Source of the DNA: Desulfuromusa sp.
Lineage (GTDB): Bacteria; Desulfobacterota; Desulfuromonadia; Desulfuromonadales; Geopsychrobacteraceae
Assembly: GCA_027858895.1 (NCBI GenBank)
Contig: JAQIBX010000084.1
Location: forward strand, 1 to 32,952
Reading direction: 5' to 3'
DNA: 32,952 nucleotides
In this document: positions 1,605-6,842 of the stretch, in pieces
Numbering within the stretch: position 1 is the first letter of the stretch
How the letters are laid out: every line of letters starts with the position of its first letter
Made by a program: the position numbers and the translations under genes
The notes under the pieces: model-generated
What the model saw: the letters and a program-made list of their open reading frames with translations, nothing else
The model's database searches: none
What the model was told of the DNA's origin: nothing

Positions 1605-1691
1605 ATCTACCGAAAGGGCAAAACCGGAGAGATCCGGTGACGCAAAGCCACGGATCCTCATTAGCAGGACAGCCGGGTTGCCGAAGAAGAT
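1605..1691 (+). promoter_or_regulatory. GEMM-I (c-di-GMP-I) riboswitch, first of two
   Basis: The conserved GEMM-I elements occur in order: GAAAGGGCAAA at the 5' side, a P2 hairpin ACCGGA-GAGA-TCCGGT with a GNRA tetraloop, the invariant GACGCAAAGCC stretch, a P3 arm carrying the tetraloop receptor (CCACGGATCC...GGAC), and the 3' core CGGGTTGCCG. ATCT at 1605-1608 can pair with AGAT at 1688-1691 to close P1. As I align it to the Vibrio Vc2 aptamer, the ligand-contacting base equivalent to G20 is G (base 1617), which favours c-di-GMP over 3',3'-cGAMP. GEMM-I aptamers control gene expression in cis. Here the output is the intrinsic terminator at 1733-1768, whose loop is complementary to aptamer bases 1677-1686. 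Confidence 0.93.
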
Positions 1692-1732
1692 TCAGCGTAC
1701 TTCTTCAAGCCTTTTTAAAATATGACTTGAGA

Positions 1733-1768
1733 AACGCTCACTTCGGCAACGGGGTGAGCGTTTTTTTT
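1733..1768 (+). terminator. Intrinsic terminator of riboswitch 1 (expression platform)
   Basis: AACGCTCA (1733-1740) pairs with TGAGCGTT (1755-1762), and the stem can extend inward by C-G and G-U pairs. A run of T at 1761-1768 follows. The loop-side segment CTTCGGCAAC (1741-1750) is the exact reverse complement of aptamer bases 1677-1686, so aptamer folding and terminator folding are probably coupled. Confidence 0.88.
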
Positions 1769-1827
1769 GCTTATGGTAAAATTGTAACAGCACGAAGAAG
1801 GGTGCTGTAGACAAGACAGTAAAATTA

Positions 1828-1909
1828 TCTCCGAAAGGGCAAAGCCAGAGAGATCTGGTGACGCAAAACCACGGATCCTCAATTTAGGACCGCCGGGTTG
1901 CCGAAGAGA
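1828..1909 (+). promoter_or_regulatory. GEMM-I (c-di-GMP-I) riboswitch, second of two
   Basis: This is a second complete aptamer with the same ordered elements: CGAAAGGGCAAA, the P2 hairpin CCAGA-GAGA-TCTGG, GACGCAAAACC, a P3 arm (CCACGGATCC...GGACCG) and the CGGGTTGCCG core. TCTC (1828-1831) and GAGA (1906-1909) can close P1. The base equivalent to Vc2 G20 is again G (1838). It differs from the first copy at many P2/P3 positions while keeping pairing, which is evidence of selection on the RNA fold. Between the two units lies a small hairpin, ACAGCAC/GTGCTGT (1787-1793 with 1802-1808). The second aptamer is followed by the terminator at 1949-1987. Confidence 0.93.
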
Positions 1910-1948
1910 ATGCAGTGCATTTTCCCAAGGACTCCGGTCTTCTTTATG

Positions 1949-1987
1949 ATGCGCTCATCTCCGGCAACGGAGGTGAGCGCATTTTTT
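1949..1987 (+). terminator. Intrinsic terminator of riboswitch 2 (expression platform)
   Basis: ATGCGCTCA (1949-1957) pairs with TGAGCGCAT (1974-1982). The helix continues inward with TCTCC (1958-1962) against GGAGG (1969-1973), closing a GGCAAC loop, and a T-run follows at 1982-1987. CGGCAAC (1962-1968) is complementary to GTTGCCG (1897-1903) in the second aptamer, the same architecture as in the first unit. It lies 36 bases before the start codon at 2024. Confidence 0.9.
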
Positions 1988-2023: not shown

Positions 2024-5000
2024 ATGAAAAGATTGATAATCGCAAAAATTATTCTACTGACTGTAATTACGCTAGGTTTCTCGGCTAATGTGTGGGGAAA
2101 GACAGTTACTCTTTCCTGGGATGCCAGTCCAAGTGCGGTGTCTGGTTATAAAGTTTATTATGACGCCGGATCTTCAGTCGCGCCACTGGACGGAATCGGC
2201 GCGGCGGAAGGCAGTTCGCCCATCGATGTCGGGAATGTTCTGACTTATACTGTGACCGGCTTGCCTGATGCTGAGGAACATTATTTTGCGGTTACCGCTT
2301 ATGATGCTTCGAACAATGAGAGCACATATTCCAATACTGTTACCAGCCCAGCAGTTATCAGTGAAAATAATCCACCAGTGCTTAGTGCAATCGGAAACAA
2401 ATCGATTCTTGAGGATGCGACTTTAAGTTTTACCGTTTCAGCGACTGATGCCGATGCTGACGCGTTAACCTACAGTGCCAGTGGTTTGCCAACCGGTGCT
2501 GGTTTTAACCCGGCAACGCGTGCTTTTACCTGGACTCCCGCATTGGATCAATCTGGCATCTACTCTGTGACATTTACGGTGAGTGATGGCAGCGCCAGTG
2601 ATACGGAGACAATTCAGATTACGGTGACAAACGTTGTGGTTAACCATGCACCGACCCTTTCGTTAATTGGAGATAAGAGTGTAGATGAGGGGGAAACACA
2701 GTATATTCCGATCAGTGCGACTGATCCTGAAGGCGACAGCTTGAATTACAGCTTCAGTGGCATGCCAAATGGGGCGGAATTTAATTCGCAAGAAAATATG
2801 TTTGTGTGGCCAACTAATTTTGACCAAGCTGGGGTTTATCCTATAACTGTTACCGTCAGCGATGGAGAGTTGACTGATGCTGAACAAATTTCAATCACTG
2901 TTAGAAATGTAAACAGAGCACCGGTTCTAGCGGACATTGGAAGAAAATCAGTTCTTGAGGCGGCAACATTAAGTTTTACCGTCTCAGCGACCGATGCCGA
3001 TTCTGACACTTTAACTTACAGCGCCAGTGGTTTGCCAACCGGTGCTGGTTTCAACCCAGCAACCCGAGTTTTTACCTGGACTCCCACATTGGATCAATCT
3101 GGCATCTACTCTGTGACATTTACGGTGAGTGATGGCAGCGCCAGTGATATGGAAACAATTCAAATTACGGTAACAAATGTTGTGGTTACCCATGCTCCGG
3201 TGCTTTCTCCTATCGGTACTAAAACAGTTTCTGAGGGTTCTCAACTGACCTTTACCATCATTGGCAGCGACCTTGATAATGATGCTCTGAGTTATAGTGC
3301 TGAGGGTTTACCTGAAGGTGCGACCTTCAATCCGACAACGCGTTTTTTCAGTTGGACCCCAGAGTTTCAGATATCAGAAAATACCCTTATTTATCCGGTT
3401 ACTTTCAAGATCAGTGATGGGGTAGCACAAGATTCTGAAATTGTTACGATCAATGTCACTAACGTCAACCGTGCGCCGGTTATGGAATCAATCGGAAGTC
3501 AAACATTAACTGAGGGAGATTCTTTTAATCTGATCATTAATGCTAGCGATCCAGATAATAATCCACTGATCTATAGTGCAAGCACCCTGCCTTCGAGTTC
3601 CGTATTTATTCCGTCAACTCGTTCATTCAGCTGGATTCCAGGCAATGATCAGGCCGGTTCCTACAATGTTACATTTACTGCCAGTGACGGCTCTCTCAGT
3701 GATTCAGAAACAGTCACCTTTACCGTTAGCAATGGCAACGAAGCACCGGTTCTGAATCCCATCGGCGCCAAAGTGATTGCGGAAAATTCGCAGCTGATGT
3801 TTGTGGTGACTGCAAGCGATGTGAATAGTGACAGTCTAAGTTACAGTGCTTCCGGACTTCCGGTCGGAGCTGAATTTGATGCTGCTCAGCAGCGTTTCAC
3901 CTGGACCCCTGATTATACTCAGTCGGGTAACTTTACTGTTACCCTCAGTGTGACGGATGGAACAACAAGTGATTCCGAAGCTGTTGCAATAACGGTCACG
4001 AACAGCAATCGAACCCCTGTCATCAGTGGTTCTCCTGATGGTTCGGTTATGGCCACAACCAGTTACTCTTTTACGCCGGTTGCCAGCGATCCTGATAGTG
4101 ATCCCCTGACTTTCTCCATTGTTAATCAGCCAAGTTGGGCAACTTTTAGTCTTACCACTGGTGAACTGAGTGGTACGCCGACAGAAGCCCAGGTGGGTAA
4201 CAATGTCGATATAGTTATCAGTGTTAGCGATGTTACCAACAGTGCTTCTTTAACCCCCTTTTCCGTTGGCGTTATTGCCTATGTTCAGCAGGACTCGGAT
4301 GGGGATGGAATCCTTGATCATCTGGATGCTTTCCCGGATGATAGCAATGAATGGGCGGATACCGATGGTGATCAAGTTGGTAACAACAGTGATCTCGATG
4401 ATGATAATGACGGAATTGCTGATGTGCGAGATGGCTTTCCACTGGATGCTACCCAGTCTGGTTGGGTCATTTCGGCAACTGCAGGCGCTGGTGGTTATTT
4501 AAGTCCAGAGGGAGAAACCTCCGTGCTCTATGGCGGTTCGCAGGGTTATCAACTGACGCCAATGGCCGGATATTACATTAATGATTTATTGGTAGATAAT
4601 GTTTCTGTCGGTTTGGTGGCCGATTATGAATTTGAAAATGTCAGTGATCACCACAGCATTGCCGCGATTTTTGCCCCGGTTCCTGCTGGCCTCAGTTATG
4701 ATCTGACCGCGTCTGGGCTGATCGGAGTTGAGCGAGTCGATGGCGGTGATGACAGCCGCAACCTGGTTGATAGCAAGCCGAAGCAGGATCTTGATTACCG
4801 ATTCCGGATTGTGCTGCGCGATTCTGTGGCTGCCGATCAGCGGAAGGTTTTCCTGATGTTGGATGGTTATAAATATGAGATGGTCATTGATCAGGGTGCG
4901 ATTGCCAGCGGTGCTGACTATGTCTTTACCACCCGCTTAGGGGCTTCCTTTTCGCATCGATTCTATTTCAGTGCCGAAGATGTGTCCGGCAATCCAATGT

Positions 5001-5593
5001 GGCGTTACCCGCAGAGTGGCGATTTGCCAGGTCCTGCAGTTGAACTTCTCAACGGTAAGAATGTTGTCGGTATTGCTGCCAGAATCAATGCTTATGCCCT
5101 GAGTGCAATTGAAGCTTTTAATGATGATCAAGTGTATCGCTGGGCTCCCGATTCAGGAGTCAGTGGGGAGTTTGAATTGACGGGATCAGGCGTGCCGATT
5201 GCGTCTGGTGAAGGCTATGTTTTGAAGCGTGCTGCCGGCTCGACCCTAGCCAATCTTAGTATCTATGGTGAGATTACCGATTATGTACATGAATTTCAGA
5301 TCAAATCAGGCTGGAATTTGATTAGTAATCCGTATGGCGGAAATGTTGCTCTAGCAGATATAGAAGTTCGGTTTGGCGCTGCTGCCCCAGTTTCCTGGTT
5401 GACTGCCGCAACCAATAATCTGGTTGTTGATGCAATTTATTCCTACCTCGGAACCGATTGGGGTAATGGAAATGAATTTGCCAGCGCCGCGGGAACCGAC
5501 TCGGCAATCCTGGTTCCATGGATTGGCTACTGGATTTATGTGAATCCAACTGAACAAGAAATTTCGTTAATAATTTCAAAGCCTTTACAGTAA
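2024..5593 (+). CDS. Large secreted Ig/cadherin-like repeat protein under riboswitch control
   Basis: The protein has 1189 residues. Residues 1-25 form a Sec signal peptide (MKRL..., hydrophobic core, NVWG before the mature end). A fibronectin type III-like domain spans ~26-112 (SWDASPSAVSGYKVYYD, FAVTAYDASNNES). From ~118 to ~755 there are seven Ig/cadherin-like (He_PIG-type) repeats of about 91 residues with 'LTYSASGLPTGAGFNPATRxFTWTP' cores and 'VSDGSASD' ends. Residues ~757-815 are a Ca-binding thrombospondin type 3-like stretch (DSDGDGILD, DTDGDQ, DDDNDGIAD). The remaining ~370 residues include a 'GGYLSPEG' beta repeat and an unfamiliar C-terminal region (GWNLISNPYGG). No sortase motif or membrane anchor is visible, so it is probably an exported adhesin or matrix protein. 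I chose ATG 2024 (GGGAG upstream); the in-frame start at 1898 lies inside riboswitch 2 and would remove the signal peptide from the N-terminus. Confidence 0.85.
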   Translation: MKRLIIAKIILLTVITLGFSANVWGKTVTLSWDASPSAVSGYKVYYDAGSSVAPLDGIGAAEGSSPIDVGNVLTYTVTGLPDAEEHYFAVTAYDASNNESTYSNTVTSPAVISENNPPVLSAIGNKSILEDATLSFTVSATDADADALTYSASGLPTGAGFNPATRAFTWTPALDQSGIYSVTFTVSDGSASDTETIQITVTNVVVNHAPTLSLIGDKSVDEGETQYIPISATDPEGDSLNYSFSGMPNGAEFNSQENMFVWPTNFDQAGVYPITVTVSDGELTDAEQISITVRNVNRAPVLADIGRKSVLEAATLSFTVSATDADSDTLTYSASGLPTGAGFNPATRVFTWTPTLDQSGIYSVTFTVSDGSASDMETIQITVTNVVVTHAPVLSPIGTKTVSEGSQLTFTIIGSDLDNDALSYSAEGLPEGATFNPTTRFFSWTPEFQISENTLIYPVTFKISDGVAQDSEIVTINVTNVNRAPVMESIGSQTLTEGDSFNLIINASDPDNNPLIYSASTLPSSSVFIPSTRSFSWIPGNDQAGSYNVTFTASDGSLSDSETVTFTVSNGNEAPVLNPIGAKVIAENSQLMFVVTASDVNSDSLSYSASGLPVGAEFDAAQQRFTWTPDYTQSGNFTVTLSVTDGTTSDSEAVAITVTNSNRTPVISGSPDGSVMATTSYSFTPVASDPDSDPLTFSIVNQPSWATFSLTTGELSGTPTEAQVGNNVDIVISVSDVTNSASLTPFSVGVIAYVQQDSDGDGILDHLDAFPDDSNEWADTDGDQVGNNSDLDDDNDGIADVRDGFPLDATQSGWVISATAGAGGYLSPEGETSVLYGGSQGYQLTPMAGYYINDLLVDNVSVGLVADYEFENVSDHHSIAAIFAPVPAGLSYDLTASGLIGVERVDGGDDSRNLVDSKPKQDLDYRFRIVLRDSVAADQRKVFLMLDGYKYEMVIDQGAIASGADYVFTTRLGASFSHRFYFSAEDVSGNPMWRYPQSGDLPGPAVELLNGKNVVGIAARINAYALSAIEAFNDDQVYRWAPDSGVSGEFELTGSGVPIASGEGYVLKRAAGSTLANLSIYGEITDYVHEFQIKSGWNLISNPYGGNVALADIEVRFGAAAPVSWLTAATNNLVVDAIYSYLGTDWGNGNEFASAAGTDSAILVPWIGYWIYVNPTEQEISLIISKPLQ
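2423..2651 (+). repeat. Near-identical intragenic direct repeat, copy 1
   Basis: This segment of the repeat protein gene encodes most of Ig-like repeat 1. It matches 2969-3197 base for base apart from scattered substitutions, including silent ones. The offset is exactly 546 bases, two repeat lengths. Other repeats in the gene are clearly diverged at DNA level. Confidence 0.85.
2969..3197 (+). repeat. Near-identical intragenic direct repeat, copy 2
   Basis: Partner of 2423-2651, encoding Ig-like repeat 3. The intervening repeat 2 is much more diverged. This suggests recent duplication of a two-repeat block or gene conversion between repeats 1 and 3. Confidence 0.85.
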
Positions 5594-5606: not shown

Positions 5607-6842
5607 ATGAAAAGGTTCCTTGCAATAAATATATCTCTTTTTGCTTTACTGTCCCTATTACTGCTCTCTGCCTGTAGTGGTGGCGGAGGAGGGGATACGA
5701 CCGTAACCAGCAGAGCCGCCGATGATGGCAGTTCTACTACGGTGACAACATTATCTGGAACAGTTGCCGATGGTTATCTCACCGATGCCCGGGTCTTTCT
5801 TGATCGGAATAACAATAGAGTTTATGACAATGGCGAGCCGATGGCACAATCCACATCTGGAGGGGCTTACACGTTAGTAGTTAATCCGGGAGAAGGCGAG
5901 CTTTATCCCGTTGTGGCGCAGGTTATTGCCGGGCAAACGATTGATGCAGATACCGGGGTTCCGGTTGCTGCAGGTTACCTGCTGGAAACATTGCCTGGGC
6001 GCTGGGGATTTATTTCTCCTTTGACAACCTTGGTTAAGCTGGAAAGTGATAAAAACCCATCTCTTACTGTGCAACAGGTTGAAATAGCGGTTCGGTCACA
6101 ACTTGGGATTGCAGATTCAGTCTCACTTTTTACTGACTATATTGCGCCTGCCAATGTGGATGCAACTGTCGTTGCAGAACACAGTCGTGCCCACAGTGCC
6201 GCCCAAATCGTTGCTAGTCTTATGGGCAGTTTACGGGTCAGTATTTCTCAAAATTTAGGTGGGATAATTCAAGATGCAGAGCAATTGTTGGTCTCTTATA
6301 TGGTTGGTGATCAGATTCTCTGGCAGGCGCCGCTGATTGAACAGGCTCTCGACAACGAACGAAACCAGGGTTCGGTGATTGATGTTTCTGCCTTGTCCAT
6401 TGCTATTACCGAAGAAATCAATACTGGTGGTTTAGATATGGATATGTTGGCTCTTTACGCGCAAAGATTGGAACAGGACATTGAAGTATGGGATATGCAG
6501 CCGCCACAGATACAGAGCCAATCCCCTTCTGCAAATGACACTGCTTCGGTCAATACGATTGTTTCGCTATCGTTTGATGAATTGCTTGATGAAACTTTAC
6601 TGAATAACGGCATCATTGAGCTATCGGGGCCAAATGGTTTAATGTCCGGTAGTTTGGGTTATGATTCCGAACATATCCGTCTAACCTTTACCCCAAACCA
6701 GTTCCTGCTGCCGTTCAGTAATTATCAGGTGACAGTGAAGGGTGTGCTTGCTGATACCCTCGGTAATCCATTGGGAGAGGATATCACTTGGGCGTTTACC
6801 ACAATTTTTGATCAACAGCCACCAGCTCTTCCCAATTTTTAA
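5607..6842 (+). CDS. Lipoprotein with SbsA-type Ig-like (Big_5) C-terminal domain
   Basis: A 411-residue protein beginning with a lipoprotein signal; the lipobox LSAC puts the lipidated Cys at residue 23, followed by a Gly-rich linker. Residues ~48-120 (LSGTVADGYLTDARVFLDRNNNRVYDNGEP) look like a SdrD-B/carboxypeptidase-regulatory-like beta domain. The last ~100 residues (PPQIQSQSPSANDTASVN through DITWAFTT) match the SbsA Ig-like fold. The middle is helical and unassigned. It follows the repeat protein by only 13 bases, so the two are probably one operon under the c-di-GMP riboswitches; a surface-anchoring or assembly partner is a reasonable guess. The AGGAGG at 5595-5600 abuts ATG 5601 but lies six bases before ATG 5607, so I prefer 5607. 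Confidence 0.8.
   Translation: MKRFLAINISLFALLSLLLLSACSGGGGGDTTVTSRAADDGSSTTVTTLSGTVADGYLTDARVFLDRNNNRVYDNGEPMAQSTSGGAYTLVVNPGEGELYPVVAQVIAGQTIDADTGVPVAAGYLLETLPGRWGFISPLTTLVKLESDKNPSLTVQQVEIAVRSQLGIADSVSLFTDYIAPANVDATVVAEHSRAHSAAQIVASLMGSLRVSISQNLGGIIQDAEQLLVSYMVGDQILWQAPLIEQALDNERNQGSVIDVSALSIAITEEINTGGLDMDMLALYAQRLEQDIEVWDMQPPQIQSQSPSANDTASVNTIVSLSFDELLDETLLNNGIIELSGPNGLMSGSLGYDSEHIRLTFTPNQFLLPFSNYQVTVKGVLADTLGNPLGEDITWAFTTIFDQQPPALPNF

Follow-up and report, generated by a model that had tools for sequence, protein, structure and literature searches.

The window analyzed here is a 32,952-nucleotide stretch of DNA from a Desulfuromusa sp., and the region of interest is the leader of a two-gene operon that lies downstream of a Maf-family gene. 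This leader carries two full aptamer-terminator units that share a ligand class and have no gene between them, as would be expected of a pseudo-cooperative tandem. The features, in window coordinates, are as follows.

1548 to 1576, + strand: likely leader promoter, TTGATT-17-TAACAT, with 8 of 12 consensus letters
1608 to 1686, + strand: predicted c-di-GMP-I aptamer 1 (cmscan, RF03167, 65.8 bits, E = 1.3e-13), with G20, A47, and C92 (position 1681)
1677 to 1686, + strand: 3' strand of aptamer 1 and putative antiterminator strand of unit 1, an exact complement (10/10) of 1741 to 1750
1694 to 1698, + strand: putative second antiterminator strand of unit 1, pairing with 1734 to 1738; less conserved (82.5% of cells)
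1729 to 1768 including the T-run, + strand: intrinsic terminator 1 (stem 1729 to 1766, 17 pairs), whose 5' arm and loop contain 1741 to 1750
1774 to 1782, + strand: candidate extended -10 element (TGGTAAAAT) that may mark an internal promoter, right behind terminator 1
1829 to 1906, + strand: predicted c-di-GMP-I aptamer 2 (cmscan, RF03167, 61.2 bits, E = 2.7e-12), with G20, A47, and C92 (position 1901)
1897 to 1906, + strand: 3' strand of aptamer 2 and putative antiterminator strand of unit 2, pairing with 1959 to 1968 (9/10)
1914 to 1921, + strand: putative second antiterminator strand of unit 2, pairing with 1948 to 1955 (8/8 including G-U; 95.8% of cells in 12 homologues)
1948 to 1987 including the T-run, + strand: intrinsic terminator 2 (stem 1948 to 1983, 16 pairs), whose 5' arm and loop contain 1959 to 1968
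2001 to 2017, + strand: third copy of CGAAAGGGCA, the 5' word of the aptamers, which extends into the probable ribosome-binding site
2024 to 5593, + strand: controlled gene 1, with its ATG at 2024, a secreted protein with He_PIG, Big_9, and cadherin-like repeats and a weak fn3 stretch (Pfam)
5607 to 6842, + strand: controlled gene 2, a Big_5 lipoprotein (Pfam)

A preliminary description of this DNA had proposed two GEMM-I aptamers, each with its own terminator, ahead of a secreted repeat protein and a lipoprotein, and had called for a covariance search with RF01051. That search gave 68.7 bits for aptamer 1 and 63.7 bits for aptamer 2 against a family cutoff of 35. Both aptamers were also full length in cmscan and passed the cutoff (59 bits) of their best-E family, RF03167 (c-di-GMP-I-GGC), and the P1 helix of aptamer 1 reaches from about 1605 to 1691. 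A terminator scan of the window returned three sites against 0.5 expected, one on the minus strand and two on the plus strand, one of these behind each aptamer with its stem before a T-run. Pfam agreed with the account of the two genes, and the coordinates and wording of the description hold. The description had also stated that the arms of the two copies diverged while keeping their pairing; we saw this for P2, which differs between the copies by one pair (G-C to A-T on both sides).

Next, we examined how each terminator relates to its aptamer. Both terminator stems are located 3' of their aptamers and can therefore coexist with them, as in the Cd1 type of switch. In each unit, the terminator holds in its 5' arm and loop a complement of the aptamer 3' strand GUUGCCGAAG, a strand that contains C92 and part of P1. 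The antiterminator pairs were kept in 93.8% of cells for unit 1 and 93.1% for unit 2 (12 homologues per unit). When the partner was slid by 1 to 3 columns, only 29 to 51% of cells paired in both units, a control biased toward any structure that was derived from a member of the alignment. Two-sided changes were found in the unit 2 antiterminator of G004 and G008 (G-C to A-U) and in the unit 1 antiterminator of G021 (U-A to C-G), most other changes being one-sided, and covariation measures did not clearly exceed those of shuffles (51/500 at best, 12 homologues per unit). Because there were too few double changes for covariation to serve as proof of the antiterminator, we relied on conservation, the slid control, and a null set of unrelated hairpins. 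By complementarity and conservation, then, the putative antiterminator would capture the aptamer strand that carries the ligand-pairing C, as in the Cd1 type, with weak covariation.

Folding of unit 1 gave the antiterminator nearly the whole ensemble at transcript lengths of 153 to 161, and in unit 2 a different fold was the more stable by about 3 kcal/mol at lengths of 154 to 158. At full length, both units favored the terminator by about 10 kcal/mol irrespective of the aptamer, and energy alone was therefore rejected as proof. The aptamer fold stood 13 to 14 kcal/mol above the ensemble at lengths of 154 to 157 and was poorly rated at all lengths because tertiary contacts and ligand are outside the folding model. 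We counted 59 nt in both units between the end of P1 and that of the antiterminator. In the parts of PMC9262584 available to us, the binding window is 61 nt for Cd1 of Clostridioides difficile and 25 nt for pilM; the distance here is thus near that of Cd1 and unlike that of pilM, although the measures are not exactly alike.

These features suggest the following mechanism. Without ligand, the aptamer 3' strand with C92 and part of P1 would pair with the terminator that follows, in its 5' arm and loop, and the second short helix would support this antiterminator. The antiterminator could form before the 3' arm of the terminator is made, and RNA polymerase would read through. With c-di-GMP bound, the strand would be held in the aptamer, the terminator would fold, and transcription would stop. 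A transcript started upstream would have to pass two gates, and therefore c-di-GMP should repress both genes more steeply than it would through one gate. In a simple product model with two OFF units, the 10 to 90% span narrows from 81-fold to 40-fold, with a half-point of 0.41 KD. On balance, we read the locus as a homotypic c-di-GMP-I doublet whose two units would both be complete transcriptional OFF-switches of the Cd1 type. c-di-GMP more often favors adhesion than opposes it, which counts against an OFF reading; still, we consider it likely that c-di-GMP represses through both units because the layout matches the Cd1 OFF-switch. As far as the available text of PMC9262584 goes, Cd1 likewise has a separate terminator and an antiterminator that captures both the aptamer strand and the ligand-pairing C, and it is OFF; unlike the window, it is a single unit, whereas we find a doublet with a second antiterminator helix.

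To place the two units among their relatives, we used a census of Desulfuromonadales in which 113 G20/A20 units were read by script. Among the 89 G20 units, 78 had a separate terminator (52 with complementarity), 3 had an overlapping one, and none was found for 8; the 24 A20 units divided into 18 (12 with complementarity), 3, and 3. Complementarity was present in 64 of the 96 separate-terminator units versus 23 of 268 unrelated terminator-like hairpins (Fisher p = 7.6e-28), the latter being hairpins not linked to GEMM-I and many of them probably inside genes. With the doublet family excluded, the count was 32/59 (Fisher p = 4.2e-14). Within that family, 32 of the 37 units with a found terminator passed the complementarity threshold and 5 failed (unit 2 of G013, G006, and G010; unit 1 of G016; and L076). 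In a sister group (same class, other order), 8/15 G20 and 0/3 A20 units passed, which is too few to judge. The census draws on the matches listed, so further doublets are possible, and its coverage is partial, since for 32 of the input loci the pattern did not read any aptamer; a stricter version drops further loci, such as L005 of the window's own genome, and reads few sister-group loci. Four GAT and three CAC order-level units were excluded from the main counts, and three L193 rows were removed as duplicates of L230. We suggest tentatively, at somewhat less than even chances, that most terminator-bearing GEMM-I units of Desulfuromonadales, of both the c-di-GMP and the cGAMP types, are Cd1-like OFF-switches and that the doubled two-promoter version is an old cassette, movable before different surface operons (an FN3 repeat protein or minor pilins). 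If this is true, c-di-GMP shuts down surface structures here, in contrast to the ON control that has been reported for pilM of Geobacter and that c-di-GMP-I tandems are supposed to show.

The same census bears on whether the units could instead be ON-switches, as in Geobacter pilM or the Bacillus thuringiensis triplet, with c-di-GMP preventing the terminator. In the accessible parts of the papers concerned, c-di-GMP-I tandems are regarded as ON-switches: the triple tandem Bc3-5 of B. thuringiensis was tested (PMC4759541), and PMC12452182 supposes that both units must bind to promote transcription, whereas we predict OFF. Bc3-5 resembles the window in being a c-di-GMP-I tandem ahead of cell surface genes, but it has three units and its terminator takes aptamer strands, hence ON, according to the available text (PMC4759541). 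Some A20 and G20 units in the order do overlap their terminators. However, the window terminators exclude the aptamer strand, and a pilM-like terminator that takes it was found at neither unit and in only 6/113 order-level G20/A20 units, a class that changes with the permitted hairpin length (L003 falls among the separate or the overlapping units accordingly). We therefore regard ON control at this locus as unlikely.

The pocket letters of both aptamers are G20, A47, and C92, in what we take to be the standard numbering of these positions. The same three letters were read in 40/40 units of the doublet family, and the ligand is very probably c-di-GMP, as the preliminary description had proposed from the aptamer class; a mixed c-di-GMP/cGAMP doublet was rejected because all 40 units read G20. 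In the available parts of PMC6274999 and PMC7288161, a G20A change allows GEMM-I to take cGAMP, and A20, the mark of GEMM-Ib, is absent from both window copies. That the pair binds cGAMP or another dinucleotide is accordingly quite improbable, even though the window's own genome holds A20 aptamers (L001 and L003, and by eye L004 and L005) together with a Hypr-like GGDEF domain (L090) and the best-E Rfam family of the pair is a named variant. The variant label itself was rejected as a sign of another ligand, since the RF03167 consensus has G where both copies carry A47 in the cmscan alignment. The two A20 aptamers L001 and L003 (G000:C28:2513 and 6863) are about 4.3 kb apart and precede near-identical gene starts. 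L090 (G000:C150:9648-10109) has a GGDEF domain with the GGDEF motif and a serine at the selectivity position, which marks Hypr enzymes according to the accessible text of PMC6456294; it is a candidate cGAMP synthase among the 18 of 21 GGDEF loci, some of them overlapping, for which selectivity letters were obtained. Because A20 aptamers and a Hypr-like GGDEF share a genome with the G20 pair, the organism may use both messengers, with the window pair of the c-di-GMP type.

The preliminary description had further inferred two independent decision points in series, and the main doubt about this comes from a possible internal promoter, if it works. The leader-promoter pattern was present in 15/19 loci (shuffled mean, 0.48; largest, 4), the pattern having been written after the sequences were viewed. 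The promoter scan gave TTGAGT-16-CATAAT at 1560 to 1587 instead, the element at 1548 to 1576 being missed because it has only 8 of 12 consensus letters. Behind terminator 1, TGnTAnnnT was found in 11/18 loci versus 0/16 behind terminator 2 (shuffled mean, 0.94; largest, 5), although this pattern too was written after viewing and the loci are related. In 9 of the 11 loci it lies 4 to 8 nt behind the T-run, variation between loci sits at letters that a -10 can spare, and the element is kept in G002 and G007, both of which are without unit 2. Transcripts from a promoter at about 1774 to 1782 would encounter unit 2 alone, so that the locus would be two promoter-riboswitch modules: every transcript would be gated by unit 2, and just the long ones by unit 1 as well. 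Against this, the elements of G013 and G006 (2 of the 11) are elsewhere in the spacer and look weak, the extended -10 is absent from G010, G012, G022, G019, G016, and L077, the promoter scan gave no promoter at 1774 to 1782, and the word TGNTANAAT, taken by itself, is no rarer in the window than other words of its kind would be (3 copies versus 4.63 expected). We rate the two-module arrangement just short of an even chance. Given the possible internal promoter, some transcripts may be controlled "in series" and others not, and whether transcripts meet both gates in all cases is to us an even question.

To examine the history of the doublet, we compared related genomes. A GEMM-I search gave matches in at least 36/41 genomes, and doublets with a spacing of 221 to 282 nt were present in the window's genome and in at least 8/13 other genomes of the genus, as well as in at least 5/11 genomes of the same family (G016, G018, G019, G021, and G022). 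Pfam was run on the window genes, and the downstream genes of relatives were named by eye. On that basis, 6 of the 9 same-genus doublets among the matches listed (window included) stand ahead of an FN3-like protein. The doublets of G006 and G013 (L038 and L037) precede a type IV minor-pilin/PilY1-like operon at another place in the genome, with a carbamoyltransferase-like upstream neighbor in G006 and a transposase-like one in G013 (by eye). The G010 doublet has other genes downstream, also by eye, and keeps maf upstream. A scan with the lipoprotein alignment found 21 loci, including Desulfuromusa kysingii DSM 7343 and several Desulfuromusa MAGs; of the further lipoprotein loci with enough upstream DNA, 7/7 had at least one GEMM-I upstream and 3/7 had a doublet.

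In a tree of 37 units, the copy labels needed 4 changes versus about 12 in shuffles. In the main group, copy 1s and copy 2s were mostly apart with moderate support (92/88 and 90/87, neither starred), the copy 1 of G018 grouped beside copy 2s, and G019, G016, and L077 formed a separate group with both copies. Because copies group by label across relatives, the main duplication probably predates the genus, and another duplication or a conversion would have taken place elsewhere. Unit 2 is missing from G002 and G007, which retain unit 1, and since they are sisters in the unit tree (100/97), a single loss is likely. This loss, along with terminators that win at equilibrium, would fit one or both units having decayed or having become fixed attenuators that no longer switch. 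We consider this very unlikely, because 12 homologues per unit preserve the pocket letters, the pairs of P1, and most pairs of the antiterminator. Both units are probably functional, as the preliminary description had supposed.

The tandem layout itself is already known, and the window adds one more case. In the accessible parts of the surveys, c-di-GMP-I tandems number 347 doublets and 12 triplets and are discussed as more digital switches (PMC9481103), and tandem c-di-GMP riboswitches are enriched in Thermodesulfobacteriota (PMC12452182). The window resembles them in its two complete same-class aptamer-terminator units before one operon and in coming from the enriched phylum; the locus is not named in those parts of either survey. 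The doubled layout and the idea of a sharper response are unsurprising because both are in print (available text of PMC9481103, PMC4759541, and PMC12452182). A GEMM riboswitch before an outer-surface FN3 protein, as in the window, is described for Geobacter in the parts available of PMC2996986 and PMC13194489, which give no doublets with separate terminators and no control direction. Four details were not found in the portions of the literature consulted: the predicted OFF control, the antiterminator in two parts, the relocation of the cassette, and the second promoter that may lie between the units. Open-access papers, supplements aside, yielded none on c-di-GMP riboswitch terminators in Desulfuromonadales or on a tandem c-di-GMP riboswitch with a second promoter, and the accessible parts of PMC3543383 and PMC4914508, from the Desulfuromusa riboswitch literature, hold nothing on this locus.

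The prediction gives a testable control direction, repression, for a conserved tandem riboswitch, and it cautions against transferring the ON logic of Geobacter riboswitches untested to a neighboring order. The genus is culturable, and D. kysingii DSM 7343 carries the doublet. Natural one-unit (G002 and G007) and three-unit (G045, at another locus) variants make the benefit of doubling testable. The latter locus, L228 (G045:C2:145600-146900), was among the matches listed and has three c-di-GMP-type units in tandem, 254 nt apart, every one with the same terminator complementarity.

Finally, CGAAAGGGCA occurs three times in the window versus 0.10 expected, and words resembling it precede the start codon in many homologues (by eye). 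The copy at 2001 to 2017 is possibly the relic of a third unit. In G002 and G007, what remains of unit 2 is its first letters, followed by a tail of the CGAAAGGGCA type.
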